This document shows, one piece after another, positions 3,387 through 63,828 of a stretch of DNA of 64,000 nt (position 1 is its first letter; the number at the start of each line of letters is the position of its first letter). The translations under genes and the position numbers were made by a program. The notes under the pieces are model-generated. The model was not told the DNA's origin, did no database searches, and was given only the letters and a program-made list of their open reading frames with translations. Source of the DNA: Owenia fusiformis (taxonomy: Eukaryota; Annelida; Polychaeta; Sabellida; Oweniidae); NCBI GenBank assembly GCA_903813345.2, contig CAIIXF020000004.1:2377525-2441524 (forward strand). Reading direction: 5' to 3'.

Positions 3387-3905
3387 CCTTTGTCCATATG
3401 TCTGGCTAACAAGTTACTGCTATGGAGTAAGACTTAGCCATTGACTTTTTGCCTTGCTTTACAAGTTCTTGTCACGTGGTAGGATTAACCTGTTTTTGTC
3501 TGGCTTAATAATTTCCTGTTATGTGGTAGGATTAAGCCTTTGACTGTTTGCCTTGCTTAACAAGTTTCTATTATGTGGTAGGATTAAGCCTTTGACTGTT
3601 TGCCTTGCTTAACAAGTTTCTATTATGTGGTAGGATTAAGCCTTTGACTGTTTGCCTTGCTTAACAAGTTTCTATTATGTGGTAGGATTAAGTCATTGAC
3701 TGTATGTCAGGCTTAATAATTTCCAGTTATAAGGTAGGATTAAGCCTTTGACTGTTTGTCATGCTTATTAGGTTCCTATTATGTGGTAGGACTAACGTAA
3801 GCCTTTGACTATGTGTCTGGCTCAGCAATTTAATGCTATGGAGTAGGACTAAGCCTTTGACTGTGTGTCTTGCTTTACAAGTTCTTGTTGTGGAGTTGGA
3901 CTTAG
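3387..3905 (-). repeat. 52-bp tandem repeat made from the GDPD stop-codon region
   Basis: About ten units with a 52-bp period (for example GTAGG at 3526, 3578 and 3630-3631). On the minus strand the unit is homologous to the last 17 codons of the GDPD gene plus its stop: the terminal coding stretch at about 3849-3905 reads CTTAGTCCAACTCCACAACA and ends in AGTCAAAGG, and the downstream units read CTTAATCCTACCACATAATA and end the same way. The coding tail is therefore itself a repeat unit and the rest of the array lies in the 3' UTR. Confidence 0.85.
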
Positions 3906-6900
3906 CTCTGGCAGCTCATCTTCATCCATTTCAATTGTAATTCCATTACTCGAGTGAACACTAACTCGTATACTACCATTGACACTCCCATTCATTGTAC
4001 TATTATCGCCCACACTTAATTGCGAGCGCAAACTCTGAGAACCATTCAAAGAACCCATTTCAAACTTGGGTGGATTTTGAATTTGGTCTATATCCATTGT
4101 TTCTACATCGACACCATCTATTATCAATTTTTGTTTCATTTGGCGAGTTTTGGGATTTTTTTGTGTAAGCCTCGTTCTCATTGTTGGTGCTTTGAGCTCC
4201 ATGCGTCGCTGAAGTTCGCTGTTCTTCCTACGTGCATGATACATGAAGATCGCAACTATGATTACTAAAGATGCTACGTCAATGATGATCCACATTATCA
4301 TGTAGTGCTGTGGCTCCTGAAAATAATCATTATTAATTATTAGGGGTGAGACGAGTCGAAAAAATCCGATTCGAGTCGAATCCGATTCGAGTCAGAAAAT
4401 GACAATTCGAGTTTCGAATCCGTTTCGAGTCAGATAAAGTGCGAACAACATCGCTTTTGACTGTTCGTATTTTTAATGCGTCAATGGTGGAAAGCCGGAA
4501 ATATACTGTACTCCGGGTAAATTTCGACGCTATAAAATTTCGCGATTTTTCAAAATTGCAATTTCGCAGCTATTTAATTTCGTGGATTTGAGTTGATGAC
4601 ATTTCGAATTTTTTCCGATTACCGTGAATCAATGCGTATCTGACTATTTTAGCCCGTTCAGAATCCGATAATGTTTGTATTTCCCACGTTTAGGGCATTT
4701 ATTTAAATATTCTTGAATGGCCTTTTCAACTTCAATTTGTCGGATATCATTGTCGCAACAGTTCTTGCCTTTGTTGGCCTAATAAGCCTATTCAAAATGT
4801 TAGACATTTTAGGCCTTTTTGAATTATCGCCCAACAACACTTAACGTAACGTAACGAACACCGAACGAAACATATCAAAAGTCTCAGGTCAAATCCCTGC
4901 GGATTTAAAAGACAAATTTCGCGACGATAAATGTTCGCGATTTTACTACATTCGCGAACAAAGCGAAATTAAATCGCACGCGAACAATACCCGGAGTACA
5001 GTAAACAAACACAATTCGTCGTAAGTTTATTCTGATTTTATTACATATATTCGTTCATTTATGTGTACATACAATATAATAATTTAATACAAGCATATCC
5101 AAGTCATTGAAACTTATATATTCAACGCAATATCGAGTAAAAACATGCATATTGACAGTATTTTTCTGAATTTTTTTATTTTTTCGAATTTTTTTCTCAA
5201 CTCGAATATGATTCGATTCATCAACTTCGACTCGATTCGACTCGAAGCCCCAAACCCGCGAGTCCTCGACTCATCGGGTTGTCGTCTCACCCCTATTAAT
5301 TATGATATTACGATTTCATTTATAGATCGCAACTTAAAGATGCTACGTCAATGATGATCCACAATATCATATAGTGTTGTGGCTCCTGAAAATAATCATT
5401 ATTAATTATGATATTAATACGATTTCATTTATAGTCGAGTTACCCTAATCAATAGTTAATCATGTTTAATAGTAAATAAAGATCGAAATGCTATACACAT
5501 CATTAAGTTGCTCTTGCTCAAAAGAAATGTTTAAACATTAGGAAAACATATGTACTCTACTATGTGAACCAGCAAATAGATATACGTATATATGAAAGAA
5601 ATGAAGCTATTGAACAAGAATCCTTGAAAAAATGATGTAATTTTTTTTTATTTATATATACCATCATCCATATAGGGCCATCCATGTTGACAAAGTCATG
5701 ACACATATCAGATGTAAGAGATGACACTCCCACACACCAATAGAGGGAAAATAGCCACCTTCTATTTATTATGTACACATTCGTGCTGATGTTGTTCGCT
5801 CTGTACATTCTGAAATTAAAAATTTATTAAGAACATTGACTAATTTAATTGTATCATATACTGTACTCCCACTTATATTTGACCCTCTTATATTTTGTGT
5901 TTTTGGCATTTTGAAATAATGCTGCTATAAGATTTTGCTAATTTTCAGTTTTTTGAAATTTTCGCGGATTTGTCATACAAGATCACTCTTTCGACTTCGA
6001 ACTGTTGGAATTTGATGGCTACTATATTTTGCGAATTTTCCAAATCTCGCGAAAAGCGGGAAATATAGTAGCGCGCGCAAATTACCAGGAGTACAGTAAA
6101 TCCTTTCTATTTAGTGCAGATCGAGAGATAAATAGAATGATACCTACTTTATGCCTCAATGCATCAGAAAACATAATTATTTTACAAATTTAATTGATAT
6201 AAGCAAGCATCATGAATTAAAATTTGCACTTACCTAATTGTATTATTGTTAGTAATTGTTTTGTATGAATCCACTTCCATTTCTGATAAAAATATTTGAT
6301 TGAATGGTTCAGTAATTTTCTGTTTCTTTACAAAAATACAAAAAGAGAAATCAAATGTAAATTACTGAATATATACCTCAGATCATCTAAGCTAACATCG
6401 GCACTCTCAACGTTGACCATGTCTAGGTTGTTTCTCTTCATGTAGGATACAGGCATAGCTCCACCTTGTACTCTTACAAAGCCTGTACTATTTAATAGGC
6501 TATTATTCTGCCAGTTATCTCCATTGAGTAACATCCATACCTGAAATAAAACAGTTGTAATTCCACTTAAAATGATTATTATTATAGTAAATACTATCTA
6601 CATGTGCATTTTCACAAGTAATATTTCATAGAAGCTGAAGAGCTAGAGGAATATTACCTTGAACTGTCACGGGTATTCACCAAAAATTAAATTAAATATA
6701 ATATATATCCATTTTATAGTCAAGTTCACTATTCTAAACATCATCAATTCATGTTTTGACATAAATCTATATATTTACACACTCAGGATAAAAACTCTAT
6801 TTATGTGTAATGATAATAATCTTGATCTACAGTGAATGAATGAAAAAAAATTGAAAATTCCTTGTGGGAGCAGTTAATATTAGTCACCAGGTCCGTAGCC

Positions 6901-9900
6901 AGGAGGGATTCGCAGGGTTCAGGCAAAACTTTCAAAATCAAGCAGGTTTTTTACCATTTTGAGCACTGCTCAAGTGATTTTAGCCAGAAAACTGAACACC
7001 CCTTGGCAAATCCTTGATACGGGCATGGTCACCAACCAATTTCGTTTGATAAGCAAGGCCAATAAATATCATCTGTTATCCCATGGTTGCAAGGATATAG
7101 ATCGAATATCACATGAAGATATATTTGATATGTGGATGAAGATATCATATTTTAGCAAAAAATTCACAAACCATCGAATATCACTTTTAAACTATCGAAT
7201 ATCACGTCTTAGAAAGTGATATTCGATGGTTTGAAAAGTGATATTCGATGGTTTGAAAAGTGATATTCGATGGTTTCGAATTTTTTCAAAGAAAATTTCT
7301 TTTTACTTTTTTTAATTATTTTTTAAAATATTTCCAAAAAATTCAAAATTTCAAAAAAAAAATTCAACATTTTTACAAATTTTTCTCAAATTATATTTTT
7401 CAACTTTTTTCGCTGATGATGATTTTCCATGGGATAAACGGACAATCCTATGGTTTTTCAAAAATATCAATTATATCCACTCATGGATACAAATATCTTC
7501 ACTCATTCGCTGCGCTCACTCATGAAGATATCAATATCCACTCATGGATATAAATGATATTTTTTCAAAACCATAGGATATTCCTATATTCTTTCATGAC
7601 TTGTGACCCAATTTTGACCAATTATAACATACAGCTATCAATACATATCTCCAGGATCAACAAACTGAGTGAATTGAATTAAGTTAACAGAGAACAACAA
7701 ACAAACAAAAACATTATGCAAGAGGTTAACATTGAAATAAAGTAGTACAATAGTCTTACATCATGCCATTGAGTACTTCCTATGGACTAGCATATCATCT
7801 TTCAGTGTTTTCCGCAGTTTATTTCATAAATACTTTTTTCAAATGAGCACAAATCTAACAAAAATCTCATTTCTGATCAATGTTGGACACAATATGCCAA
7901 TTTTGCAGGACTCGTTTTTTCATGAGGCTCTAATTGAGTTTTCAGTTTTGTGCATTAAAAAAAAAAAGTTTTGTGCATTAGCCTATTTTCAAAATGTTAG
8001 GTGGGTGCAGTTCCCACCTGATTTAATGCTGGGAAATAACTGTACTGCTTCCTCCTCTAGTTGAGGAAATAGGAAATACTTAATAGACATATAGGTAGAT
8101 GGGTACACCAGTGGCTTAATGATAGACTATTTTTAGTACTAAGATAAAATTAATATAAAACATTTACATCATCAATATACTTAATCTGCTGCAGCCACCA
8201 CACCTTAAATTTACGACCACAAATATTTTTACAAAGACAGTTTATCATGCAAAATAGGTAAAGAACAAGTGCATGTAAAGGCTTCTCTAGTATCCAACTA
8301 AAATTGGTTACTCAAACTGATTAATGATAAACAGTCGTAAGCTGATTTTCGCAGGTCATCTGTAAACTAAAGTATGTGTCTTCAACAAGTAAATTTAAAG
8401 ATACCTTTGAGAAAGTATAAAGCAACTTACCAGTAATAGCCCATACACTAAAGTAACTTACCAATTTGGGTTGAATGCCACTCTCTAATATTGCATGCAA
8501 TGTCATGTTCATAAAGTAACTTACCATTTGGGTTGAATGCCACTCTCTAATATTGCATGCACTATTAGGTTTATAAAGTAACTTACCAATTTGGGTTGAA
8601 TGCCACTCTCAAATATTGCATGCAATGTCATGTTCATAAAGTAGCTTACCAATTTGGGTTGAATGCCACTCTCTAATACTGCATGCAATGTCATGTTTAT
8701 AAAGTAACTTACCAATTTGGGTTGAATGCCACTCTCTAATATTGCATGCAATGTCATGTTCATAAAGTAACTTACCAATTTGGGTTGAATGCCATTCTCT
8801 AATATTGCATGCACTATCATGTTTATAAAGTAACTTACCAATTTGGGTTGAATGCCACTCTCTAATATTGCATGCACTATCATGTTAATAAAGTAACTTA
8901 CCAATTTGGGTTGAATGCCACTCTCTAATATTGCATGCAATGTCATGTTTATAAAGTAACTTACCAATTTTGGTTAAATGCCACTCTCTAATATTGAATG
9001 CAATGTCATGTTTATAAAGTAACTTACCAATTTTGGTTGAATGCCACTCTCTTATATTGCATGCACTATCATGTTAATAAAGTAACTTACCAATTTGGGT
9101 TGAATGCCACTCTCTTTTATTGCATGCAATGTCATGTTCATAAAGTAGCTTACCAATTTGGGTTGAATGCCACTCTCTAATATTGCATGCAATGTCATGT
9201 TTATAAAGTAACTTACCAATTTTGGTTAAATGCCACTCTCTAATATTGAATGCAATGTCATGTTCATAACGTAACTTACCAATTTGGGTTGAATGCCACT
9301 CTCTAATACTGCATGCACTGTCATGTTTATAAAGTAGCTTACCAGTTTGGGTTAAATGCCACTCTCTAATATTGAATGCAATGTCATGTTCATAACGTAA
9401 CTTACCAATTTGGGTTGAATGCCACTCTCTAATACTGCATGCACTGTCATGTTTATAAAATAACTTACCAATTTGGGTTGAATGCCACTCTCTAATATTG
9501 CATGCACTGTCATGTTTATAAAGTAACTTACCAATTTGGGTTGAATGCCACTCTCTTATATTGCATGCACTGTCATGTTTATAAAGTAGCTTACCAGTTT
9601 GGGTTGAATGCCACTCTCTTATATTGCATGCACTGTCATGTTTATAAAGTAACTTACCAATTTGGGTTGAATGCCACTCTCTTATATTGCATGCACTGTC
9701 ATGTTTATAAAGTAGCTTACCAGTTTGGGTTGAATGCCACTCTCTAATATTGCATGCACTATCATGTTTATAAAGTAACTTACCAATTTGGGTTGAATGC
9801 CTCTCTCTAATATTGCATGCACTGTCATGTTTATAAAGTAACTTACCAATTTGGGTTGAATGCCACTCTCTAATATTGCATGCACTGTCATGTTTATAAA

Positions 9901-12900
9901 GTAACTTATCAATTTTGGTTGAATGCCACTGTCTAATATTGCATGCACTGTCATGTTTATAAAGTAACTTACCAATTTGGGTTGAATGCCACTCTCTAAT
10001 ATTGCATGCACTGTCATGTTTATAAAGTAACTTACCAATTTGGGTTGAATGCCACTCTCTAATATTGCATGCACTATCATGTTTATAAAGTAACTTACCA
10101 ATTTGGGTTGAATGCCACTCTCTAATATTGCATGCAATGTCATGTTTATAACGTAACTTACCAATTTTGGTTAAATGTCACTCTCTAATATTGAATGCAA
10201 TGTCATGTTTATAAAGTAGCTTACCAGTTTGGGTTGAATGCCATTGTCTAATATTGCATGCACTGTCATGTTTATAAAGTAACTTACCAATTTGAGTTGA
10301 ATGCCACTCTCTAATATTGTATGCACTATCATGTTTATAAAGTAACTTACCAATTTGGGTTGAATGCCACTCTCTAATATTGTATGCACTATCATGTTTA
10401 TAAAGTAACTTACCAGTTTGGGTTGAATGCCACTGTCTAATATTGCATGCACTGTTATGTTTATAAAGTAACTTACCATTATGGGTTGAATGCCACTCTC
10501 TAATATTGTATGCACTATCATGTTTATAAAGTAACTTACCAATTTGGGTTGAATGCCACTCTCTAATATTGCATGCACTGTCATGTTTATAAAGTAACTT
10601 ACCAGTTTGGGTTGAATGCAACTCTCTAATATTGCATGCACTGTCATGTTTATAAAGTAACTTACCAATTTGGGTTGAATGCCACTCTCTAATATTGTAT
10701 GCACTATCATGTTTATAAAGTAACTTACCAGTTTGGGTTGAATGCAACTCTCTAATATTGCATGCACTGTCATGTTTATAAAGTAACTTACCAATTTGGG
10801 TTGAATGCCACTCTCTAATATTGTATGCACTATCATGTTTATAAAGTAACTTACCAATTTTGGTTGAATGCCACTCTCTAATATTGTATGCACTATCATG
10901 TTTATAAAGTAACTTACCAATTTGGGTTGAATGCCACTCTCTAATATTGCATGCACTGTTATGTTTATAAAGTAACTTACCATTATGGGTTGAATGCCAC
11001 TCTCTAATATTGTATGCACTATCATGTTTATAAAGTAACTTACCAGTTTGGGTTGAATGCCATTCTCTAATATTGCATGCACTGTCATGTTTATAAAGTA
11101 ACTTACCAGTTTGGGTTGAATGCCATTCTCTAATATTGCATGCACTATCATGTTTATAAAGTAACTTACCAGTTTGGGTTGAATGCCATTCTCTAATATT
11201 GCATGCACTGTCATGTTTATAAAGTAACTTACCAATTTGGGTTGAATGCCACTCTCTAATATTGTATGCACTATCATGTTTATAAAGTAACTTACCAGTT
11301 TGGGTTGAATGCCACTGTCTAATATTGCATGCACTGTTATGTTTATAAAGTAACTTACCATTATGGGTTGAATGCCACTCTCTAATATTGTATGCACTAT
11401 CATGTTTATAAAGTAACTTACCAATTTGGGTTGAATGCCACTCTCTAATATTGCATGCACTATCATGTTTATAAAGTAACTTACCAATTTGGGTTGAATG
11501 CCACTCTCTAATATTGCATGCACTGTCATGCTTATAAAGTAACTTACCAGTTTGGGTCGAATGCCACTCTCTAATATTGCATGCACTCTCATGTTTATAA
11601 AGTAACTTATCAATTTTGGTTGAATGCCACTCTCCAATACTGCATGCACTGTCATGCTTATAAAGTAACTTAACAATTTTGGTTAAATGCCACTGTCTAA
11701 TATTGCATGCACTATCATGTTTATAAAGTAACTTACCAGTTTGGGTTGAATGCCACTCTCCAATACTGCATGCACTGTCATGCTTATAAAGTAACTTACC
11801 AATTTGGGTTGAATGCCACTCTCTGATATTACATGCACTGTCATGTTTATAAAGTAACTTACCAGTTTGGGTTGAATGCCACTCTCTAATATTGCATGCA
11901 CTGTCATGCTTATAAAGTAACTTACCAGTTTGGGTCGAATGCCACTCTCTAATATTGCATGCACTCTCATGTTTATAAAGTAACTTATCAATTTTGGTTA
12001 AATGCCACTCTCCAATACTGCATGCACTGTCATGCTTATAAAGTAACTTAACAATTTTGGTTAAATGCCACTGTCTAATATTGCATGCACTATCATGTTT
12101 ATAAAGTAACTTACCAATTTGGGTTAAATGCAACTCTCTAATATTGCATGCACTATCATGTTTATAAAGTAACTTACCAGTTTGGGTCGAATGCCACTCT
12201 CTAATATTGCATGCACTATCATGTTTATAAAGTAACTTACCAATTTGGGTTAAATGCAACTCTCTAATATTGCATGCACTATCATGTTTATAAAGTAACT
12301 TACCAATTTGGGTTGAATGCCACTCTCTGATATTACATGCACTGTCATGTTTATAAAGTAACTTACCAGTTTGGGTTGAATGCCACTCTCTGATATTACA
12401 TGCACTGTCATGTTTATAAAGTAACTTACCAATTTGGGTTGAATGCCACTCTCTAATATTGCATGCACTATCATGTTTATAAAGTAACTTACCAATTTGG
12501 GTTGAATGCCACTCTCTAATATTGCATGCACTATCATGTTTATAAAGTAACTTACCAATTTGGGTTGAATGCCACTCTCTAATATTGCATGCACTATCAT
12601 GTTTATAAAGTAACTTACCAATTTGGGTTGAATGCCACTCTCTGATATTACATGCACTGTCATGTTTATAAAGTAACTTACCAGTTTGGGTTGAATGCTA
12701 CTCTCTAATATTGCATGCACTATCATGTTTATAAAATAACTTACCAATTTGGGTTGAATGCCACTCTCTAATATTGCATGCACTCTCATGTTTATAAAGT
12801 AACTTACCAATTTGGGTTGAATGCTACTCTCTAATATTGCATGCACTATCATGTTTATAAAGTAACTTACCAGTTTGGGTTGAATGCCACTGTCTAATAT

Positions 12901-15900
12901 TGCATGCACTGTTATGTTTATAAAGTAACTTACCATTATGGGTTGAATGCCACTCTCTAATATTGCATGCACTATCATGTTTATAAAGTAACTTACCAGT
13001 TTGGGTTGAATGCCACTGTCTAATATTGCATGCACTGTTATGTTTATAAAGTAACTTACCATTATGGGTTGAATGCCACTCTCTAATATTGCATGCACTA
13101 TCATGTTTATAAAGTAACTTACCAATTTGGGTTGAATGCCACTGTCTAATATTGCATGCACTGTCAAGTTTATAAAGTAACTTACCAGTTTGGGTTGAAT
13201 GCAACTCTCTAATATTGCATGCACTATCATGTTTATAAAGTAACTTACCAATTTGGGTTGAATGCCACTGTCTAATATTGTATGCACTATCATGTTTATA
13301 AAGTAACTTACCAGTTTGGGTTGAATGCAACTCTCTAATATTGCATGCACTGTCAAGTTTATAAAGTAACTTACCAGTTTGGGTTGAATGCAACTCTCTA
13401 ATATTGCATGCACTATCATGTTTATAAAGTAACTTACCAATTTGGGTTAAATGCAACTCTCTAATATTGCATGCACTATCATGTTTATAAAGTAACTTAC
13501 CAATTTGGGTTGAATGCCACTCTCTAATATTGCATGCACTGTCATGTTGAGGGCCTGGTCATAGTGTGGTGAATCACTACCCACTTTCAGATCAAACATT
13601 ACGGTTTTACTATACTGAAAAATAAACCTTCGTGTTAGTAAATGAAATGATGACCAGTGTTTTCCTAGGATTATTTTCTGATATATCTGAACAAAATTTA
13701 AATCTTTATAATACTGACAGTTTCCAAAATATGCCAATTTGTCATGTTTTTTTCTTATATACTTGTGTGGGTGCAAATGGGGTTACCAGGAGGGTGCAAG
13801 TCTATAAAATCTCAAGTGAGTACAGCGTTTACTTGCTTAATGCCCAAATTTGAATTGCTTAAAGCTCATATAAATTCAATAAAAGATGTTCAGAATTGGG
13901 AAAGATAAATACTGTTAATTCAATCATTTTGACATAATAGTTTAAATTGTTCACCTCTGATAAAAAATTGTGTCAGTGCCTTAAAGGGATATTCCTTGCC
14001 AGATCATCTCTCTCCTAATATGGCAGCTATAACCACATATATACTTGACATGTTTAGAAAAACACAGAACTATGTTTTGATATAGTCAATATTGATCACA
14101 TAAAAATGTAGCGCTCAATTCCAGTAGGCTGCCATCTTTTAAGATTTAACTCAGGAAGTGATGTCATCGACTCTCAACTTTCCATATAACATTAGGTAAG
14201 GAGTTACAAAACCAGCTGAATATTCTCTTTCAATTTTGCCTTTGATTTAATACTTCTAATAGTCTCTACTTTTATTCTAAGCTGACAAGCTCTGAAAATA
14301 TTTTTGCACACAAAGTAAGGACCACTTGTCTAGAAGTGATTTTGTGCTACTTTCCTATACTGTTATAGGCAAGGTTATGAAAGTTGAGAGTCGATGACAT
14401 CACTTCCTGAGTGAACTCTTAAAAAATGGCAGCTTACTGGATATGAGCACTACATTTTTAAATGATCCATATTGACTATATTACATTTTCCATGATTTGC
14501 TCAATATGGAAAGTACATATTGAATATAGCTAACATATCAGCATAGAAATGGTCTGGCCAGGAATATCGCTTTAAGATTGGCCTTAAAATTAAATATGGC
14601 ACTCTGATATATCTCGTATAAGATGCCATTACAAGTTGCATAGAAACTCACATTTTTGGCTACTTCTAAGTACTGCTTAAATGTTGGAATGGTTTGACTT
14701 GAGTAGACTGCTTTCTGACCTTCATCTAGACTAGAGACACTGCCAAAGGGGTCTCGCTGAAATAATATGCAACCATTTTTAGACTTATTTATTTATTAGT
14801 AGTTAAATGATTTATTACAGTTTTTGTATCAAGGTTAACTTTTTATCACACAAAAATGTCCTATCTAATATTTATCCATGAATATACCTCTCGCAAATTT
14901 TTAGTGACAATTCTCCAGCCAAATAAGGACTTGTTTCATATTGTTTTCACAATCTTTCAAAGTATTAACAAATATTGATTTATAGTAATGCTAAATATTA
15001 TTCAGCTCTCGTTTGTATATTATACAGGGTGGGCCAAAAAAACAATTCCCAAGTTTAAAGATGAAGAATTCACATGATATATGTTAAACCATGCCATATA
15101 TTATATATAATTTTAAAGATAAATCATTTCCTAATAAAATTACACAATCTAATTGAAAAACATTTGGAGTGGAGGTTAAAATTGACACCAGGGGTGCCAT
15201 GAGTGACCAAAAAACGAAAATTCTCAAAGGACGATTCTCGGTTTGGAGAACAGTCTCCTGAGCTAATAATTTTTTCATGAAAAATATAGAAATATTACCC
15301 AAATTAAACTAGGAATATTCAAAAGAGGACATTTAAATCTACAAGATGTAAAAATAACAAATTGGTCTGAAGCAGGGATAACGCTCAATAAAACCGATCC
15401 AATAAAATACAAGTCTCGATTTGGGGAAAGAAGTTCATCAGTGTACTGCGCTAATATTTTTTTGCGAAAAATCTAGAAATATTACCCAAATTAAAGTATG
15501 ACTATTCAAAAGAAGACATTCAAATCTATATTATGTAAAAAAATCAAATTTGTCTGAAGCAGGGATAATGCTCATTTAGATTGATGAACTTCGTTCTCCA
15601 AACCGAGAATCGTCCTTTCTCTCCGTATTGCAGTCACAGTTGCACTCAATATGCTTTACTGAATCATCATGAATTTATTTAAGAGTAAAACACAATTCAT
15701 AATTTATTAAAAATAAATAAGAATTATTGCTGAATTTTGCACTATACTTGTATAAATGTACCTCTTTTGAAGGTGCCAAAGTTCAAATTTCCCTCCATTT
15801 TCCATAATTTGGAAATCCGCAGTGAATAATTTTTTTATCGCTCATGACACCCCTGGTGTCAATTTTAGCCTCTAGCTCCACAAGAAAACAATGGCTTTTC

Positions 15901-18900
15901 AATCAGATAGCGTCATATTGTTAGGAAATGATCTTTAAAATGACATACAATACATGGCATGGTTAAACGTTATATCATATATAAGGTGCAACGAAGCCCA
16001 TAGTGTTATCATGATGTGCTCATTGTATGATTCTTTAACTATGTTTGTACCTACTGTTAGGTCATTTATGCAGCCAATTTTATGGTGGAATATCAGTAAG
16101 AAAAGTCCTATTCTCAACAAACAATGTATCCTAATGTTCAAACTGCAAACACGTTGCTACCCATTTGATATTTGTGCTTTATGCCCTCTGTGCAGCAAAG
16201 AAAATGACACCATGGAACATTTCTTATTGCGTTGTGACGCACTTTCTCATGAGCGACATACACTTACCATGCTTTTAGAAAGTGAAGAGTGCCATACAAT
16301 TGATGAAAAGTTGAGCTTCATTTTTGGTATAAATCATTTGAGTTTGGACCAGGAGAGCCTTGATTCTCTCTGTTCTGTTTCGATTAACATTCACTCTATG
16401 CATAGAGCCAGGGAGACAATGTTAAGGCATTTTAACTTTTTGTACCTGTAGCTTTTATATTACTCTTTTCTTTTACCTTATAGCATTGTATACCATGTAA
16501 CTGTCTAAATGAATAGACGCAAATAAAGAATACATACATACCTACATCACATGATATCCATCCTTAAACTTGGGTATTGTTTTTTTGGCCCACCCTGTAC
16601 ATTCAATATATCTGCAATGGTTACTCACTATATCACATGATAATGAAAAACAAAAGTGCAATGTACCTTTAAGTACCAAGACCCAGCATTTAACTTTTCA
16701 ATGTCAGACATATTAAAGGACCAGGCAGGGTTTCCACTCCATTCTGGGTAAAGTTCTTCTATATTGGTAGTACGCCGAAATGTCTGGTCATGTAGAAGAA
16801 ATGGCGTACCATCAAAACTGAAAAACATGAAAAGGAAAGACAATACAGTAAAACATGTTTTAGTGGAATTTGGAGTATTCCACATTAAAGGTTCTATTGT
16901 AGTAAACCTTAAGAAAAGTATCGCATCAAGCCCAGGGTGCAACTTAATTCCAGCAGCTCAGAGTCAATAACTTTTCATATTGGCCTGTTTATTTTTCATC
17001 ATGTATGGGGAAGAAATGAGGCACCTGGTCCACATTTCAACAATTTTTACAATTTTTAATTTGGATTTTTAAAACCTTATATATTGTCAAAACACAACAT
17101 ACCTAAATTGAACATCAGATTCTAAACCTAATATGTCATATTTTGCTGCCGTCTCCATGGCGACTAGAGTATTCTCAGGTGCAAGCTAGAACACATCATA
17201 AATAGATTTAATTATCATATAACTGACAATTTACTAATAGGCAACAGTTTTTCATAAAAAAAAAATTACAAACCGTTAACATGTAAGTGTCACCGTCTGA
17301 TACAATCTGTCACAATATTGCCCCACATAAAAAGGTTACATAAAAAGGTTACATAAAAAGGTTACAATATGAATCGCATTTAATAATTAAACATTAACAG
17401 CAATTGTGATAGGGACAGTGAAAAAAGGGCCAGTAACTAAAAATGATCTTACATTGGCCTAAAATAAAAATTTAAGAGATTTACATTGCTTCCCCAAGAA
17501 TACATCCCCAAAATGCAATCTGATTTTTGACGCCGTTTCGGTGCCAAATTTTGGTACAGTTTCGGCACCAAATGGACTGAGTAGTCCGGTAGCAAATTTT
17601 GGTGGCGAAAGGTTTCGGTGCCGGAACGGTGCAGGAACAGCACCAAATTTTTTCGATGACGAAATGGCGCCAAATTATATTGGCCTTGTACTCTCCTCAT
17701 TTATGTTACTTACAGCAGATGCTCCACGATGGGCCATGACACCAGGCTTAGGGGGTAGGAGTTGCCTATGTAGTACACATGGGGACTGGACTAGTAATGG
17801 ACTTATGTATATCTATGTTACTTACAGCAGATGCTCCTGCATGGGCCATGACACCAGGCTTAGGGGGTAGGAGTTGCCTATGTAGTACACATGGGGACTG
17901 GACTAGTAATGGACTTATGTATATCTATGTTACTTACAGCAGATGCTCCTGCATGGGCCATGACACCAGGCTTAGGGGGTAGGAGTTGCCTATGTAGTAC
18001 ACATGGAGATTGGACTAGTAATGGACTTATGTATATCTATGTTACTTACAGCAGATGCTCCGCGATGGGCCATGACACCAGGCTTAGGGGGTAGGAGTTG
18101 CCTATGTAGTACACATGGGGACTGGACTAGTAATGGACTTATGTATATCTATGTTACTTACAGCAGATGCTCCTGCATGGGCCATGACACCAGGCTTAGG
18201 GGGTAGGAGTTGCCTATGTAGTACACATGGGGATTGGACTAGTAATGGACTTATGTATATAATCAGCATAAGTCCTATGTACACAACCATCCAGATAACT
18301 TGCCAAACTACAATACAGAATAAACATACAGAGAAAACTGTATAAAGTGTTAGTAGAACAATTTTATGAGTACCAAGACCAACCAAATTAATGTTAAGTG
18401 GAACAATTTTTAGAGGTACCAAAGGTGTTTCACTTAGACAGGTTTAACTGTACATACTAAAATGAAATAGAGATCCAACACACGTAACGTGAATTATGAC
18501 TTAATTCTGCCTCTATAGGTGACCTTGTGATACACTTTATTTGGGCAGGAACTAGGCATATAACATGGCAAAGATACATAACTGATGTATAGCATACCTT
18601 TATTCATGTGGTAACATTCTTTTGATGATGTCACGCATCTATGAATAATCAGAATGGTTGGAAATGGAAAATCGTATTACAAGGTCAACATGCCGGAAGT
18701 AAAAGAGGAAAAAGTAAGTTGTAGGATTTCATTCATGTATAATCAATGTCGTTTTTACTATCCACTTTTTTCTAAAATAATCTCAATAAACCAATATAGT
18801 GAATGCCAGGATCGTCCTCAAACTTTCAAAGTTACCTTTTTTATTTAAGAAAACCCAGTGTGACGCTATGAGCCAAGTTAAACAAGTCATGGCTGCAACA

Positions 18901-23232: not shown

Positions 23233-26200
23233 ATGTCTTTTGGTAGAGATATTGACTTCAAGATGCATAAAGTATTCATCGGCTGGGAGACATTGGACAT
23301 GAATGAACAGGCAAGTGTTTTTACGACTACATGAACACTACTTGTATGTACATGTACATGTAAAATGGGAATAGATTATGGGCTTTCTCTTTTGGAAGCC
23401 AATGAATAGATGTACAATGTACATCCTGCAGGATTTACAGTTTGTACTTGCTCTTTGATAAAATGTATTGTCAATGAGCTTATTAAAATCATGGGCTTTC
23501 AATTAGAGAAAGCCCATACTAAAAGTGAATGAGAATACATGTACATGTATAAAACAATGTGAATGGTACTTTATGGTATGTGTACATTGTACAAGTCTTT
23601 TTAAATGCACTTCAGGCTAATAATTTTAGTATTACACTATTTCAGGCTGTCGTCTATAATAACGATGGAGAAGGTCGTGTTGAAGAAGGTCCAAAACGGG
23701 TAAAAACAGTTAATTAATTACTTTTGTATATCTAGCCTATAATGTACGTGATGAAATTATGATATTTTAAACAATACATACACTGTAACATAGATTAAAT
23801 CTACATGTACATAATAAAAATACCACATCTGCTGCCTCAGTACCTTTAGTAAAAACACATGGTTAGGGATTCTGTTACCTTTTTGAGGGATAGCAATAAT
23901 TTGCATAATATAAACACCTGCATATAATGAAGACAAAAATTCTGCATAATTGTGATCATAACTTGATTGCATTTTTCATTTCAGTTGTTTTTATTTCGAG
24001 AAAAGTTTGTTCCATTGTCAAGATACACTGCTGACCAAAACCACTACCTTCAGGTTAAGTACAGGAATGGCACAATAGAACATATTCGTGGGTAAGTCCC
24101 TTACCTCTTGAATCCCAGGTTCAAAAATCGGTTGAAGAGAATTGCTCATTTTAGTAAAATTAGATGGCAAAGATCATCTCTAGACATTTTAAGACAATTT
24201 TTGTGTAAATTGGATGAAAATTGTTCAAATAAGAGCAATTCTAGTGAGTTTTCTTGTCACACTGGGTAGTCAAGGGTTTAAGGTCACTGTCACTTAATAT
24301 TTTACACACTGTAGTCTTTGGAACCCCTTCAACAATCACATTTTATTTGATGAACAAACTACAATGTGCAAGCAGCTGAAGTTAATCAGCACCAAGAAGT
24401 TTGAATTGGGCACATTATCAACTATTCAGCTGCGGTCTCATGAGGAAAAATCTTACCCTACATAAGACTTACATATCTGTATGACAGATCTATGAAAAAA
24501 TTATAAAGTTTTCCTTTCAATAGAAAATGCTACTTTATCAAAAATGTATATTATCTAGTACATCTCTTATGACCACCCTGTATATAATTCTCCTCTGTCT
24601 TATTTTCAGTCCATGCCTTATATACAAGAATCCACTTGAGCATGACAGTATTAAACTAGAGAACAACATCTCACTTGATGCTAATGAAGTTCTTGTGATA
24701 TACCAGAGAGATGAGACTACAGGCGCTGTAAGGAGATATCTACAACATGGACCTACAATGTTCATACCCCAAGCGAATGAATGGTGAGTATGGTACATTA
24801 CCATTGTTAGCTATTGAAGTCATGGTACCATTTACACTCCCGGCCTTCATAAGTCTTCAAACTAAAATTTTCAGTTGCCAATCTTATGGAGAGGGGTGTA
24901 TTTATGAATAATGAAATAGACAAAACTTAAATGTGATCAGTTACTTATTCAAAAAAAACTTCAAATCTATGTCACCACTTCAACGTGACTATAGTGTTAT
25001 TATTTATAACTCAAGATAAATATTTATAGAAATACACAGCTTTATTGATCACTCCTTAAGAATCCAACTTTATCTATTACATCCGGGCAATTAGGCCTTG
25101 AGTAAGGCTGGTAGCTTAAAACCTTTGACATGACATGCATTACTATGGAAACACATTACACGACAGCGACCTTAAGGTAGGCATTAAAGAATGTGTGCTT
25201 AATTCAATGGTCTCAAATGGAATTAACCCGAAGGGCGAAGACCCTGAATTTTTATGTAATCACTAGAAGCAATGGCATATTGTTATATAAGTCTCCAACT
25301 TTTTTGTGGATGGTGTTAGGCTTCTGTAAGAAATAGCAGGTGGTGACATTTTGCATGTTAATGCCTTGTTCTCTGACATTATCATTACTCTTTTGATTTC
25401 AGGCTTCACAAATTCTGCTGGCATGGTGTTGACCCTAACAATAAAACAAGACTTCTACCTCACTCTAATACTTTCTCAAAGTTAAAAGTCATACCCGATC
25501 AATTCTATTATAATGTAAGTACTGTTACTGTTTCTCAAAGTTAAAGGTCATGCTCAATCAATTCTATTAAATTGTAAACACTCTAAAACTTTCATAAAGT
25601 TAAAGGTACTAAATCCATCAAAACATTTGCGTTCCAACAAGAGACACCCATGGTAAGCTACATGTAAGTATGAGGAAAAAAGACAGTTCAACTTGATTTT
25701 CTTTACAGATTCATTAAAAGTTCATTAAAACAAAAACAAGTTTTAAGTTCCCACTGGGAGAGTTCGAATAGAGTTTTGGCCTTCCATAAAAAATAAATGT
25801 CACATTTTCTCTGTTCAGGAAAATTATTGAAATTGTTAGATTTCAAAATCAAATGTTCCAAACCATTCTGAATAACTTCCTTTCCATGAGTTGTGTTATT
25901 GCTTATAAGTTGACATTTGCATTTGAGTTGACTCTTATTTGTTTAATTGTAAGGTTGACGAAGTGAGAACAGCTGATGATGCCCTTATTAGGGTGAAACT
26001 CATGATATTCTATGAGCTGACAGATATTGAACAAATGGTGAGGATTTTATTTTTATCCCAATACTTAGAGTTCCACTTGTTTGTGGTTTTATTTCAAAAA
26101 AGTTATATTTTCAACATTAATATTTTCTTTGGAAAATGTTAATATCCCAAACATCATATTGGATAATCTCTTTATATCATTGGTTCACAAATATAAAGTA

Positions 26201-29200: not shown

Positions 29201-29684
29201 GTTGTTATTTATGAAATCTTATTAAGGATAATATTGACAATAATGAGCACCCTGACTGTAGCAAATAGTTTTTTTAAAAATGTTCTCCCTCGCTACAACC
29301 AATGAGAAATCAATCACGCCTACTGATAAACAATATGTTATAAGACAGAGTCTACAAACATAAAAGTTGACCTCTGTTTAATCAATTCTTGTTACTGTTT
29401 TGTGACTTGCATTATTTAGGCATTTATCATTGTAGTTTATAACACATGGCTTAAATTTTTTGTCATTGCAACAAGGGGGTTACATCTTTGAACCTTAACA
29501 TAATTGTATGTATTGATTCCAGATGAAGGGGGAAATGAACAAACAAAAAGTAGAGCATTATACTAATCTGAAAACAATGGGGGTTGATCTAACAGAGTTT
29601 GTTAAACAACAAGCTGCAAGACCTCAGAAACTTATACATGTCTCAGCAGAGAATAATGCAGCTAATTTACATTTGCATCAGTAG
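23233..29684 (+). CDS. MVP-shoulder/SPFH-like coiled-coil protein, function unknown (12 exons)
   Basis: Exons: 23233-23310, 23646-23699, 23985-24091, 24610-24783, 25403-25514, 25954-26037, 26297-26334, 27251-27292, 27805-27991, 28569-28690, 28921-29011, 29523-29684. They chain to 416 aa; an in-frame TAA lies 24 bp before the ATG. Intron 1 has a GC donor (CAG|GCAAGT); the others are GT-AG. There is no signal peptide or membrane segment. The N-terminal third has vault-repeat-like phrases (AVVYNNDGEGRVEEGPKR, LQHGPTMFIPQANEWL). Residues about 176-292 (VDEVRTADDALIRVKLMIFY to KVVFRGYYASEKLQKLHDNA) resemble the shoulder domain of major vault protein, a relative of SPFH/band-7 domains. Residues about 293-365 are a charged coiled coil. 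It is half the length of major vault protein and lacks the full repeat series and cap helix, so it is not MVP itself. The stop codon lies in the first units of a tandem array. Confidence 0.85.
25471..25609 (+). repeat. 59-bp duplication of an exon end and donor, about 2.5 copies
   Basis: The end of exon 5 of the MVP-like gene (CTTTCTCAAAGTTAAAAGTC ... TAT AAT|GTAAGT at 25514) is repeated 59 bp later at 25530-25578 (TTTCTCAAAGTTAAAGGTCA ... AAATT|GTAAAC) and partly again at 25589-25609. The second copy keeps a weaker GT donor. Confidence 0.9.
26674..27180. mobile_element. Full-length palindromic foldback element in an intron
   Basis: The left arm (TTGTTCCACAGCTGGATGA at 26674) pairs along its length with the right arm ending TCATCCAGGTGTGGAACAG at 27180; the centre pairs TGACTCTAACTGAACTTGAT with ATCAAGTTCAGTTAGAGTCA. 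The whole 507 bp forms one long hairpin with few mismatches. It lies between exons 7 and 8 of the MVP-like gene and has no coding capacity. Confidence 0.85.
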
Positions 29685-32214: not shown

Positions 32215-32304
32215 TTTACAACATATACTTTAAGTGATGATTTACATGTTGGTTACTTTTTCGGTACCGATATTTAATACGATTTATATTATTTGTGTTA
32301 ATTG

Positions 32305-47868: not shown

Positions 47869-47965
47869 ATACCAGAATTTGTAGACCTATGAATCGGATC
47901 TCTTCATTCATATCATCATTTTAACCGTAAACAATTGTGACACATACACACAATCAAGGTTGATG

Positions 47966-56500: not shown

Positions 56501-59500
56501 ATTCTAGGATAACACATGTGCTTAAATTGCGCCAGAAAGGCTTAGAATATGCAAGAAAAATTTGGGCAGATTTTGTCCTGGTGAGTTATATAATTTTATA
56601 TTTATCATTTATTTATTTAGATACAGATTTATTTCAATACAGTATATGTTTTTCTTAAAATCCATAATGTTAATGCCATACCCAGCTTGACAGAATCGAG
56701 TTGTGTATGTTGCATAATTTTGATCAAATACTCTTTTCAACATTGAATAATGATTAGTTAAAATGTATATTAAACAAACATACAGTCAGTACTTATATGT
56801 GAATCCTTAGCCTCAAATAGCTACTCCATTATATTTCAATATATACCATAGTAATAACTAAGCAACCAAAATACACAATTATGCCATAATTCATAATATA
56901 TACATGTATAGACTCAAACACTGAGACATTTTATATTTCAGTATGTAGATGTAGATAATTTCCTTGTAAATCCTGACATACTACATGATCTCATTACACA
57001 AAGAAGGTGAGTGTATTTTATTCTCTTCGCATTGAAATCAATACCCTTTGCATTCGTTTGACTTCACTTCTTAAAAGAGGGCTTCGTCTTCACTCTTTCA
57101 AACTAAAATAAACCTGTGAACTCACCGCGCCAATCAGTGTTCATCGGCCAAATTTGACCGACGTTCTATATATGGTCATTCCTTCTGACGTCATCGTTGA
57201 GCTCGGAATTAACCAATGACATGCGCAAATTTAATTAGCACGCATTTGGCGTATGTTTCTTCAAGCTCACTGACTGATGGAAGAAAGGTCAGCGCATAGG
57301 TTAGAAGTGATTTATTACACAAACTGTCACCGGTACCCGTCGTATGGGCGGGGCTACTAAACTGTAATATGGTCTCTACTAGGCAGAGTGTAGTTTAACT
57401 AGACTCTGCGCGCAGGGTATGAAATCAATATATGTAAGTCAAATAAAAGTTTTGCTATGTGTTCACTGAATGAAGTTAGAATTTGTTTAACATTTTATTT
57501 TCAGAACAATAGTTGGTCCAATGTTAAATTCAACAGTAGATTACTACAGTAACTTTTGGTGTGCTATGACAGAAAAGGTCAGTATGAAAAATCAATTTAC
57601 AACCAACTGTGTATTATTGTGATGCTTGCAACGAATGGCACATTATTATTATAATCAGCTCATGGATTGGAACCAATAAATGATTAAAGAATAGGACTCC
57701 ATTATTTGTTGCTTCTTTTAAGCACTCAAATTTTGTTTTCTGCTTAAAACGAGAGTGGTAGCCCAAGCTTAACCCTTTCACGACGATAGGCTCCATATGG
57801 AGCCCTATTATGTAATACCTTTCAGGACGATAGGCTCCTTTTGGCACCATTATTTTTATTTATATACAACAATAAAATGACAATATCTCCAGTTCTATTC
57901 ATTATTTTTACACCAAATTTTGACAAGTTGTTCTAATGTGATAATCATCACTAAAAATTATATTTCAGTGATAAAATTCAAGGTATAGATCCCGGGGCAT
58001 AGGTAATTTTCAGTTTTCCCTTAAAAACAGCTCTTACTTATCCGTCACCAGGGCCAACATTTTCCTCTTATATTCACATCGGGAAAGGGTTAAAGGGCTA
58101 ACATACACTGAACTACATATAATTTTAAATCAATCTGTAAGAGAAATAGTCATGTGCTAAATTTTTTTCACACATAGTCAAAGTAAATATTAAATGTTAA
58201 TTTTGCAAAGAGTATATGCATACTAGCTTATCATCTCAAACTTAATAGTTACCCTTTGTTCAATTTTGAAGTCTAATTTCATAATAATTTCTCTATTAAG
58301 GGTTTCTATGCTAGGACAGAAGACTACTATCCTATACTATATTGGCGTAAGCTTGGATCGTTCCCTGTTGCTATGCTACACTCAACATTCCTGATTGATC
58401 TAAGACGTGATGAGTCTACAAAAATCCAGTTCTATCCCCCACCACCAGGTTATACAGGGCCGTATGATGACATCATCATTTTTGCAATAGCTTGCCAGTA
58501 TGCAGGTACAGTAGAAATTGCAAAGCCAAACACCTCTGTAAATGGAATCACAAACTAAAGAGACAGAATGCAACACTCAAGACTTGAGTGAAATGTTTAC
58601 GCTGGTGGAAGACATTATAATAAATTTTAACTCATGATATACCAAATTAAAGATAAGTAAATTCCCTATCCACTGGTATATAATATGACATGTTTTCCTC
58701 AAGAAAATCAATATTTATTTTTGAAATACGAGTGTCCCATTTTTTTGGACCACCCTGTACATTCTACATTATAGGTGTTCCAATGCATGTACTAAATGGT
58801 AAACTATATGGTTATATGCTAAACCCTCTTGATGAATCGCAAACTATAGAGACAGAAGTAGAATGAATGCAACACTTAAGACTTGAGTTTAATGTTTACA
58901 TATACATTCTACATTATAGGTGTTCCAATGCATGTACTAAATGGTAAATTATATGGTTATATGCTAAACCCTCTTGATGAAGCGCAAACTATAGAGACAG
59001 AAGTAGAGCGAATGCAACACTTAAGACTTGAGTGTAATGTTTACATGTACATTCTACATTATAGGTGTTCCAATGCATGTACTAAATGGTAAATTATATG
59101 GTTATATGCTAAACCCTCTTGATGAAGCGCAAACTATAGAGACAGAAGTAGAATGAATGCAACACTTAAGACTTGAGTGTAATGTTTACATGTACATTCT
59201 ACATTATAGGTGTTCCAATGCATGTACTAAATGGTAAATTATATGGTTATATGCTAAACCCTCTTGATGAAGCGCAAACTATAGAGACAGAAGTAGAGCG
59301 AATGCAACACTTAAGACTTGAGTGTAATGTTTACATGTACATTCTACATTATAGGTGTTCCAATGCATGTACTAAATGGTAAATTATATGGTTATATGCT
59401 AAACCCTCTTGATGAAGCGCAAACTATAGAGACAGAAGTAGAATGAATGCAACACTTAAGACTTGAGTGTAATGTTTACATGTACATTCTACATTATAGG

Positions 59501-62500
59501 TGTTCCAATGCATGTACTAAATGGTAAATTATATGGTTATATGCTAAACCCTCTTGATGAATCGCACACTATAGAGTAGTGGTGTCAATTAACCGCTTGA
59601 GCATTAACCGGTTAACCGGGGGTTTTTACCGGTTAAAGTCGGTTAACCGGCGGGAAATTTGAACTGATAATTTCAAATGAAATTACGTTCGTCAAGCTTT
59701 ACTCTATTCTATGTAAGTAAGCGCGGGAAAGCAATGTGGCAGGAATTAAAGTTGCTGATTGGATGTTTGTAAGGGATTATTGGACCTATCACATGTATGA
59801 GTAGCTCACATGAAACTGACGCTTGAAAAACAAACAGATTAAAATGCAAAGTAAGCGCGGGAAAGCAATGTGGCAGGGATTAAAGTTGCTGATTGGATGT
59901 TTGTAAGGAGTTATAGGACTTATGACATGTATGAGTGGCTTACGTGAAACTGACACCATAAAACCAAACGGATTAGCATGCAAAATAAGCGCGGGAAATA
60001 ACAGAATTATACACGGTCAACTAACCGCCCATAAAAACACAGACCGGTCAAGGCATTATCGGCGGTTAACCGGTTAACCGGTTAATACTTGACACCTCTA
60101 CTATAGAGACAGAAGTAGAGCGAATGCAACACTTAAGACTTGAGTTTAATGTTTACATATACATTCTACATTATAGGTGTTCCAATGCATGTGCTAAATG
60201 GTAAACTATATGGTTATATGCTAAGCCCTCTTGATGAAATGCAAACTATAGAGACAGAAGTAGAGCGAATGCAGCATTTGAGACTTGAGTGTATGCTTGA
60301 GGACAATAGAGAATTACCAGAGCCTTCTAGTCATATTGAAGTAGACCTTCCTCCTAAAGACAAAGCTGGGTTTAGTCAGGTAAATTTATTTATGGAACAC
60401 CTCTTTGCTATCAATAATAACTGTAATGATCTTATTTTCAATATGACTACAGATTTCATGATTTTTATTGTTGAAATAGGCACTGTTCATCTTTATTCAT
60501 TTATGGGTCGTAAAAATCATTCACTCCAAATATGACTTCCAAATTGTTTTTCACAGTTTTAGAATTTTTTAGTTACTTTATTTTTTTGTCTGAAGCTGTA
60601 AGTATAAAGCCTAACATTGTATGGATGACATACACATTCATTGTGTATTATTTCAAATTACTTAAGTCTTAAAGGCATCAGCATATTCTAAATTTGAACC
60701 AAATCTGGCCATTACCTGTTTTTATGAAAAACTGGGCCATTTTGAATTCTAAGAATCAGATATTAACCCCTTGAACAGGTAGGCTTTAGAGAATAACACC
60801 AATGGTTAGACAGAGGCTTGGATCTGCCCCCTTTTATGATCTCTCAAATGAAAAATCATAGGAGGTTGTATTAGGTATCATTGGAAAGATTTTTCAATTC
60901 CCATTATTTAACCCATCATTCATTAGAGCTATATTTAGCCATTATTGATGAAAAATTCAATTTCTAAGAACAAAAGGGTTTATTGTTTCTAGTCAAAACT
61001 ACTGACAATTGGGTAGCTTTGACCAGCTCTAATTTTCCTCCTAGGAAAGTTTTTCCGCTAAATATGCCCAATTCAATTTTAAGAAAAGCCAGAAAGTTTC
61101 AGATCAAAAGACAAACTACAAAACGTTATCTGAAAATCCCCTCTAACTGTTTAAAGGTTAATTGTTGTTTTATGTTTGTCAGATCTACATGATAAACCTA
61201 TTGAGGAGACCTGAGAGAAGAGAGAGAATGTTAAAATCTCTGGAGGAACTCAGACTTCAGGCAAAGATCTTTGATGCCGTTGATGGAAAGTAAGTATACA
61301 TTGTGCGTATATGTGAAGTCTCAAACAGTATTCCATCTGAAAATATAGGAAGTCTACTTCCAAAATGAAACACCATTAACTCAAATCAATAAGTAAGTGA
61401 AATAACATGTAACAATTTTTTTCCTTTTTATTGCAGACAGTTGAATGATACATACCTGTTTAACCTTGGTGTAGAGATGTTGCCAGAATATAGGGATCCT
61501 TACTCAGGGAGGTCTGTATTTACAATATACAGTGTATATAATCTATAATGTTCTGAAAAAATGAGAGGGATATATGAAAAAATCCCTAAATTAGATCAAA
61601 ATATCAAAATATATGGATCGTCCCCTGTATTTGTATTAGATTTCAACTCTTCTATCTAAGAAAAAAGGGGTTATTCTCGTCTCATTTGTGAACAATTTTT
61701 TTGGACACCAGGTATGTAAAACCATTACAAAATATGAAGTGTGCTTATTAATTTAAAAGTCAATTGTGATGTCATAATATGTTGCTTGGTTACAGGTCAA
61801 TGACGCTAGGGGAGATTGGATGTTTCCTTAGTCACTATTTTATATGGGAAGAGGTATGTGAACATCACTCATAACGGCTCAGTCCCTAACTTTAGATTTG
61901 AGACAAAACTGCCCCAATTCAAAAATTGAACAGCATACATTTTGAACAGAAAGAATAATACTTGTAGATAGCCTTTAATAGAAACTTTCTTTTCTGTTTT
62001 TTTAAGAAAATCGCTTGTCTAACTGTGAATGTGCTACTTAGTAGAAGAGGTGCTACTTGTGTAAATGCATATTAGTTAACTTACAAACCTTTATACTTCC
62101 AAAAAAAGTTATTTTCAAGGTCTATGGTCTATACAGATTGTTCCGAATTGTTACTTTAATTTTGGAGTTATTTAGTGCCAGAGTTGGGCAGTGAGTCTAT
62201 TCAAAACTCACGCAAAATATTTAAGTAAAATAACATGGCTGTTTTCAGAACATACTTGATTTTGTATAGACCTCTGTTAAGTCATGGGCTTTCAACAGAC
62301 TCTCTTGAAAGCCCATGGTTAAGTTAATGCTTATCAACAGTCTACACTTTTGAAATATACACATAGATACTTGTAATGATTTATTTTAGATTGTTAAAGA
62401 AGGTTACGAGACAGTATTGGTTCTAGAAGATGATGTAAGGTTTGACCGTGGGTTCAGGCGCAGACTCGACAGTGTCATGGATGAGGTTAAAAGGTCACAG

Positions 62501-63828
62501 GTTGGAGCTGAACTCATGTAAGATAATATTTAGATTTCAAGGAAAAAAAGTACTTAAAGGTCCTCTGAAATCATTAAGATGATATTTAGATTTCAAGGAA
62601 AAAAGTACTTAAAGGTTCTCTGAACTCATGTAAGATAATATTAAGATTTGAAGGAAAAAGTACTTAAAGATGCTCTGAAATCATTAAGATAATATTTAGA
62701 TTTCAGGGAAAAAGTACTTAAAGGTCATCTAAAATCATTAAGATAATATTTAGATTTCAAGGAAAAAAGTACTTAAAGATGCTCTGAAATCATTAAGATA
62801 ATATTTAGATTTCACCGAAAAAGGTTTTTAAAGGTCCTATGAAATCATTAAAGACAATCTTCATATCTCAAATTGTATACAGTGAAGGATTTCTCAGAGC
62901 TAACTCGTATATTTGTTTGGAGCTTTTGAGACATAACTGGTCCTTTCATTATATAAGCATCATTTACTTATGAGAAATATATTGACTCACCATAAATATT
63001 ACATTTAAGTTTACACATATAAGACATTAACTAACATGTATGACAATACTAAGATATTGTCATTTCAGATATATAGGGCGAAAGGCCTTAAAATACAAAG
63101 AGGAAAGTTTCCTAGAAGAGTCTGATCAACTGGTGTGGCCTCACTACACTTACTGGACATTAGCTTATATAATAACCCAGTCAGGAGCAAAGAAACTACT
63201 TGACCAAAAACCATTGGGAAAGATGGTACCAGTGGATGAATATCTACCCATAATGTTTGATAAACATACAATGTAAGCATGCTTTTTATACATATGTATA
63301 TATGGTTTCTTTCTTAAAGAAGGGCTAGTGGGCTTTGGTGGCACCATAACACTTAAGCAGTTAGGCTATATAGAATTTCATGAATTATTATTGTGCTTTC
63401 ATGGTGTGCATTTTCGGTGACAAGAAATTTTACATGGAATCATTAACTACACTGTAGCCTGTGTAAGCATTTTTGCTGAAATGCTATTTTAACAGGCCAT
63501 TATAATTACTAATTTTTTTGTTAGGTAGGGCCTTGTATATTTTTTCTCATTCAGAATTTAAACAGCTAACTGCATCTCGGACTGTTCGCCAAAAATAAGA
63601 AATAACATTCATCTTGTTTTCAGGGATGAATGGAAATTAGCATTTGAGCCGAGGAATCTAGTCAGTCTCTCTGTGTATCCACTACTAGTCTACCCAATGA
63701 AATACACGGGAGAGCCTGGCTATATCACAGATACAGAGGACTCTGAGGTTACTTTACAAAATGCAGATCCCCCAGAGGTTAGGGAATTCACACCTCAAGG
63801 ACCTGAGATAGTGAAGGAGGAGTTGTAG
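53551..63828 (+). CDS. COLGALT: Procollagen galactosyltransferase, COLGALT-like (13 exons)
   Basis: Transfers galactose to hydroxylysine of collagen in the endoplasmic reticulum. Exons: 53551-53834, 55812-55936, 56465-56580, 56942-57006, 57505-57577, 58301-58505, 60177-60379, 61183-61289, 61437-61511, 61796-61853, 62390-62517, 63069-63272, 63624-63828. All GT-AG; phases chain to 615 aa, close to the usual ~620. A TGA lies in frame just upstream. A signal peptide begins at the second Met (MKCVHLIYFLFFQVLSVF, 53596), which may be the true start (600 aa). The first glycosyltransferase domain has VDVDN (DxD-type, residues 177-181); the second (GT25 family) starts MINLLRRPERRERML and has VLEDDVRF (450-452) and DEYLPIMFDKH. 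The C-terminus KEEL resembles a KDEL-type ER retention signal. Only the last of seven copies of the exon 7 acceptor gives an open frame, and the exon 11 donor lies in another array. Which of the COLGALT/CERCAM paralogues is unresolved. Confidence 0.93.
55080..55750. mobile_element. Possible palindromic element before COLGALT exon 2
   Basis: GCCAAATTAAA motifs at 55105 and 55151 face AATTTGGC motifs at 55377 and later, with TGCCAAATTAAAACGG again near 55723. The region seems to hold inverted CCAAATT-rich arms, ending about 60 bp before exon 2. Boundaries and class are unclear. Confidence 0.35.
57769..58093. mobile_element. TTAA-flanked short TIR element
   Basis: TTAACCCTTTCACGACG at 57769 and the complement of TTAACCCTTTCCCGATG ending at 58093. 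A second internal copy of CTTTCAGGACGATAGGCTCC follows the left end. 325 bp, no coding capacity, in COLGALT intron 5. Confidence 0.6.
58775..60176 (+). repeat. 145-bp exon-acceptor tandem array in COLGALT, six decoy copies
   Basis: Acceptor plus exon 7 start (ACATTATAG|GTGTTCCAATGCATGT) recurs with first exon base at 58775, 58920, 59065, 59210, 59355 and 59500, an exact 145-bp period, before the authentic copy at 60177. Each copy encodes VPMHVLNGKLYGYMLNPLDE. The decoys end in GAGTGTAATGTTTACAT instead of continuing to the rest of exon 7. Copies 1, 3 and 5 also carry an in-frame TGA (GTAGAATGA). A diverged fragment at 58545-58600 looks like a still older copy. The sixth copy is split by a hAT-like element. 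Confidence 0.95.
59577..60100. mobile_element. hAT-like non-autonomous element inside the acceptor array
   Basis: Flanked by an 8-bp target duplication CTATAGAG (59569-59576 and 60101-60108), with short inverted ends TAGTGGTGTCAA and TTGACACCTCTA. Subterminal regions are rich in AACCGGTTAACCGG. The interior holds two direct copies of about 135 bp beginning GTAAGCGCGGGAAAGCAATG. No transposase. Confidence 0.85.
62500..62860 (+). repeat. About 56-bp exon-donor tandem repeat, six copies
   Basis: The donor of COLGALT exon 11 (GAACTCAT|GTAAGATAATATTTAG, GT at 62518) starts units that repeat every 54-58 bp. The third unit at about 62621 keeps GAACTCAT|GTAAGATA; the others read AAATCATTAAGAT, where GT has become TT. 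So one extra usable donor remains about 113 bp downstream. Confidence 0.9.

Follow-up and report, generated by a model that had tools for sequence, protein, structure and literature searches.

Tandem arrays whose repeat unit includes an exon edge look to be a real phenomenon of the whole Owenia fusiformis genome, extending beyond the window (the entire 64-kb stretch of DNA analysed here) in which they were noticed. They are probably mirages, that is, minisatellites seeded by duplications that spanned exon edges, with founding segments exonic several-fold above the level given by random placement of the unit. The initial annotation described the pattern in four neighbouring genes and suggested that a local process could underlie it. 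The pattern is not confined to these genes, as the same arrangement was found in a sample of 106 stretches elsewhere in the genome.

Exon-edge arrays in the window

Exon models of the four window genes were built from open reading frames and phase-matched splice sites. The joined exon translations match the Pfam families GDPD, Band_7 (the gene termed MVP-like), Glyco_transf_25 (COLGALT) and Lig_chan (the receptor), and the models require the original exons only. TRF gave 42 rows in the window, and there are 14 merged arrays with a period of at least 30.

Nine exon-edge duplications had been claimed in this region, and all nine are present when TRF output, exon models and direct sequence comparison are combined (Table 1). 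Eight of them are arrays. The remaining one, at the acceptor of the last GDPD exon, had been listed among the arrays or duplications and is one dispersed copy, 1,069 bp away from its source. The receptor array, ascribed to the exon 5 donor, exists, but contains merely 3 exon bases. The units are indeed unrelated to each other, and position at exon edges is the common factor, as originally proposed.

Table 1. Exon-edge arrays and related features of the window
Feature	Position	Strand	Description
GDPD stop array	3399..3889	(-)	52 bp, 9.5 copies; final 41 bp of the CDS including the stop codon
GDPD last-exon acceptor, source of the copy	4266..4340	(-)	51 bp exon + 24 bp intron
GDPD last-exon acceptor, single dispersed copy	5335..5409	(-)	75 bp, 96% identical to 4266-4340
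GDPD exon 10 donor array	8449..13548	(-)	63 bp x 81; 48 bp exon tail + 15 bp intron with GTAAGT
GDPD exon 10, real exon heading the 63-bp array	13501..13614	(-)	13613 used in the statistics
GDPD exon 6 donor array	17702..18260	(-)	112 bp x 5; 99 bp exon + 13 bp intron with donor
MVP-like (Band_7) donor array	25461..25607	(+)	59 bp x 2.5; donor at 25514
MVP-like stop array	29660..30407	(+)	23/32 bp; stop codon 29682-29684
Receptor donor array	39494..39830	(+)	110 bp x 3.1; begins 3 bp inside the exon; donor at 39496
COLGALT acceptor array	58756..59576	(+)	145 bp x 5.7; acceptor + exon head, upstream of the real exon
COLGALT real exon	60177..60379	(+)	region copied into the 145-bp array is 60100-60293
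COLGALT donor array	62508..62851	(+)	55 bp x 6.2; donor at 62517; 10 exon bases

The clearest case of all is the GDPD exon 10 donor array, which spans 5.1 kb. Its consensus coincides with the exon copy at 63 of 63 columns, and 49 of the 78 scored units are distinct. The COLGALT acceptor array is the mirror case of the GDPD donor arrays. It is detached from the real exon and is made up of partial copies, 93-95% identical, of the end of the intron and the start of the exon.

When one repeat unit per array is randomised (below, the unit null), 6 of the 14 arrays fall on a modelled edge against 1.38 expected (P 0.001, period at least 30). This count does not include the MVP-like stop array, because its row with a period of at least 30 starts after the stop codon, nor the COLGALT acceptor array, because of its detachment from the real exon. 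The idea arose in the window, and thus the window cannot serve as its test.

Sample outside the window

The searched genome comprises 498 Mb in 525 contigs, of which 12 long contigs account for 477 Mb and the remaining 513 for approximately 21 Mb; the genome report gives 505.8 Mb in 12 chromosome-scale scaffolds (PMC9977687). For a stretch of the muscle myosin, the best PDB matches are scallop chains (228 bits, compared with 204 for Myosin-7). The sample consists of 106 stretches (295,309 bp, 211 exons) from three families, Myosin_head, Cpn60_TCP1 (CCT) and Kinesin, chosen regardless of repeats. TRF was run at the window settings, rows were merged by overlap, and the main counts refer to periods of at least 30. 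To be considered an edge array, an array had to extend 3 bp or more beyond an exon edge in both directions.

The 85 myosin matches yielded 72 entered rows (11 alternative Mhc exons and 2 others were left out), 67 of them in the fetched stretches. For CCT, 44 matches yielded 37 entered rows and 36 within the fetched stretches. For kinesin, 108 of 132 matches were used, after collapsing 17 copies that belong to a single array, leaving 3 matches unentered and dropping 4 that span an intron. The scored candidates were 122 of 218 for kinesin, 65 of 210 for myosin and 76 of 76 for CCT. Partial scoring might favour exons with extra copies; however, the CCT candidates were all scored, and a search preference for repeated exons cannot explain the CCT result.

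The exon models rely on homology and splice consensus. One such model (L078) proved wrong and was corrected, and this locus was removed from the edge arrays once its sequence was read. The sequence was read directly at 16 kinesin loci, 12 of which proved to be edge arrays, and also in 3 CCT cases.

Frequency of edge arrays

In the three families pooled, 21 of 57 arrays with units of at least 30 bp lie at exon edges, against 6.85 expected under the unit null (P 3.6e-7). Correspondingly, 21 of the 211 sampled conserved exons, about one in ten, carry an edge array. The same null gives 6 of 18 against 1.59 expected for CCT (P 0.002) and 12 of 25 against 3.72 for kinesin (P 4e-5), while myosin alone is non-significant (3 of 14 against 1.59, P 0.2). 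With a stricter overlap of 10 bp on each side, the pooled count outside the window is 20 of 57 against 5.58 expected. The first null that was applied barred arrays over whole exons, which the main counts allow; in 29 CCT and myosin stretches it gave 9 of 32 against 2.82 expected.

On the other hand, when entire arrays rather than single units are placed at random (the whole-array null), the excess is gone: 21 observed and 19.6 expected in the outside sample (P 0.37), 12 and 12.3 in kinesin, 6 and 4.46 in the window (P 0.25). If overlaps with whole exons are disallowed, this null yields 15.9 expected for the 21 arrays of the outside sample (P 0.049) and 2.31 for the 6 arrays of the window (P 0.018). 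In this sample, repeat units overlap exon edges more often than by chance under the unit null, and not significantly so under the whole-array null with whole-exon overlaps allowed. The original argument, that coding edges are a tiny share of the sequence, used a wrong chance model; unit length multiplied by edge density applies.

Structure of the arrays

The 27 counted edge arrays (6 in the window and 21 outside) comprise 12 donor arrays, 13 acceptor arrays, one array at a stop codon and one covering a whole exon. The position of the edge inside the unit is compatible with a uniform distribution (KS P 0.58, 25 of the 27 listed arrays) and thus does not point to a fixed spacing relative to the splice site. 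Repeat copies are more alike in edge arrays than in other arrays, with a match of 95% against 87.5% when the window is included (P 0.02), and 95% in 21 edge arrays against 88.5% in 36 other arrays outside the window (P 0.006). This greater homogeneity is easier to reconcile with arrays that are born or turned over more often than with arrays that persist longer.

Proximity to exons alone does not seem to account for the pattern. Among arrays with a period of at least 30 that do not touch exons, there is at most a weak excess within 50 bp (8 against 4.2 expected); 1 array against 2.8 expected lies at 50-100 bp, and the count at 50-200 bp is 6 against 8.1. In comparisons of locus L009 with the other fetched loci, no match extended beyond 313 bp. 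One attempt to find a second haplotype via contig C222 gave none, the 1.1-kb query matching mostly dispersed repeats.

Alternative explanations

One alternative is chance: in a minisatellite-rich genome duplications land anywhere, and those spanning exon edges are tolerated. The whole-array null, the non-significant myosin sample and an edge position within the unit that is compatible with uniform all agree with it. However, fragments of about 1.1 kb make the whole-array null very permissive, and we hold that the unit null is the physically right one. An edge can be present in an array only when the founding segment already contained it, and later copies add no new functional edge, so the unit is the right thing to randomise; the excess then appears in the pooled sample and also in CCT taken by itself. 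We therefore consider chance unlikely, although those who prefer the whole-array null will see nothing else. The claim of an excess stands or falls with the unit null, and it calls for a full annotation backed by RNA.

Another possibility is survivorship, in which arrays anchored in exons persist since deletions removing them would also strike the exon. In line with this explanation, the exon copy is under constraint and identical to the consensus of the array. However, survivorship predicts more diverged arrays, whereas the edge arrays are more homogeneous, and arrays near exons but not touching them are hardly in excess; it is rather improbable. Selection for redundant splice sites, suggested in the initial annotation, or for alternative protein ends could be read from the GT or AG dinucleotide kept in 159 of 166 extra junction-like copies (rows for the GDPD stop, L078 and L055 left out), a figure inflated by the constraint on the exon reference itself, and from open frames of up to 839 codons in the 63-bp array. 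However, GT is conserved no more strongly than other columns in the 81-copy array (73 of 78 scored copies). The unit length is divisible by three in 8 of 27 edge arrays, much as in other arrays (14 of 44), and in 4 of the 5 window donor arrays a stop is reached within 57 nt when reading continues past the donor; the frame of the fifth, GDPD exon 10, closes 51 nt on, as judged by eye. Selection for redundant splice sites thus finds no support, and selection of either kind is very unlikely. Nor does composition seem a plausible cause. Exons are GC-richer (42%) than their surroundings (about 33%), and tandem duplication favouring GC-rich DNA would favour exons; the GC coefficient is indeed positive, but small. 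Relative to their surroundings, the 31 non-edge arrays lie on average at GC percentile 53, and adjustment for GC barely moves the odds ratio for edges, from 6.2 to 5.9 (28 edge and 43 other arrays, 71 in total, window included; the edge call of L078 among them was later corrected). A GC preference was therefore rejected, and we give it hardly any credence.

Comparison with known systems

Repeats of this structure have been described in amphioxus as mirages, in the globin genes (PMC3087553) and in PGBD5, Adh and TnC (PMC3902484). The structural match means that the kind is already known, although the pattern was unfamiliar to the initial annotation. As far as the available parts of these two papers go, amphioxus mirages leave regular splicing undisturbed, differ in length between haplotypes, are somatically unstable, and have been proposed to play a role in intron gain (PMC3087553, PMC3902484). 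They are minisatellite-like tandem repeats across exon-intron boundaries, both 5' and 3', with units of about 10-160 bp, copied splice signals and intact genes alongside, as are the arrays considered here. In O. fusiformis the unit spans an exon-intron boundary in the 21 arrays outside the window and the 6 within it; boundaries of both types, 5' and 3', are involved, and AG and GT are copied.

There are also differences. Amphioxus is a cephalochordate, whereas O. fusiformis is an annelid. Unlike what the accessible parts of the amphioxus reports describe, the arrays reported here were recorded as a proportion of sampled conserved exons, reach 81 copies, were tested against chance, and also involve stop codons and one whole exon. 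The Adh mirage was reportedly first described by Canestro (2002). In a literature search, with subscription papers mostly outside its range, neither a genome-wide test of mirages nor any case of that name outside amphioxus was found. Apparently, then, what is new here is another lineage, the frequency and the test against chance.

Introner elements are also repeated sequences carrying splice sites. However, introners form a single dispersed family, whereas the units considered here are local and unrelated to one another. A further relevant case is Rogers-type intron gain by tandem duplication, as in the potato RdRp gene, where, judging by the part of the report available, an intragenic duplication copied splice signals, as here (PMC4974935). 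There a new intron arose and is used; in O. fusiformis the additional copies are located within an intron that already exists or in the 3' flank.

Possible origin and significance

If the arrays are mirages of the kind preferred here, a segment that by accident includes an exon edge would be duplicated in tandem and found a minisatellite, which would then grow and be homogenised in the same way as other minisatellites. The copy still joined to the remaining exon would continue to act as its true end, and all further copies would come to lie in the intron or the 3' flank and presumably be ignored by splicing. Arrays lying wholly within exons would be purged by selection. The exonic bias would mean that tandem duplications on exonic DNA are born or turned over at a higher rate, rather than that they survive longer. 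Exons could be prone to such events through positioned nucleosomes, exon methylation, chromatin-directed repair or an RNA-templated step, and conceivably through a process tied to transcription or splicing, as the initial annotation suggested.

A wider reading can be offered only tentatively. In this lineage, exonic DNA may act as a hotspot where tandem arrays arise by way of some exon-linked process (chromatin, methylation or RNA), which would keep seeding introns with complete splice sites, would be common to distant animal groups, and would be a lasting supply from which new introns and alternative exons could form.

Until now, mirages have been a curiosity of few amphioxus genes and a suggested route to new introns. 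With mirages in approximately a tenth of the sampled conserved exons, above the stated chance model, the mechanism becomes testable: related species, haplotypes and RNA could reveal how often mirages are born, whether their copies are ever spliced in, and what attracts them to exons.

Arrays near exons

The count of tandem arrays that overlap an exon edge by at least 3 bp on each side leaves out two near misses at kinesin exons, in stretches L082 and L087 taken elsewhere in the genome. Two further arrays lie near modelled exons in the window. A non-LTR retrotransposon is situated between exons of the receptor (Lig_chan) gene; its endonuclease domain exceeds the Pfam cut-off, the reverse-transcriptase match being weaker.

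Arrays near exons and the retrotransposon
Feature	Position	Strand	Description
Array	L082:1-451		begins 1 bp outside kinesin exon
Array	L087:312-492		begins 15 bp outside kinesin exon
17-bp x 30.6 array	37777-38297		stops ~35 bp ahead of first modelled receptor exon segment
134-bp x 2.1 array	59715-59998		flanked by COLGALT edge array and COLGALT real exon
Non-LTR retrotransposon	42969-45701	minus	endonuclease domain, reverse-transcriptase match

Repeated exons

One kinesin stretch (profile 290-327) was matched 18 times, at spacings that are multiples of 159 bp, in G000:C2:23266359-23269174 of the same genome, partly within L055. The tandem unit there is the entire kinesin exon with both splice sites, and the spacers are ~34 bp. 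The muscle myosin gene contains 12 consecutive matches (G000:C9:37986009-37994334), all to one N-terminal part of the myosin head, which are probably mutually exclusive alternative exons.
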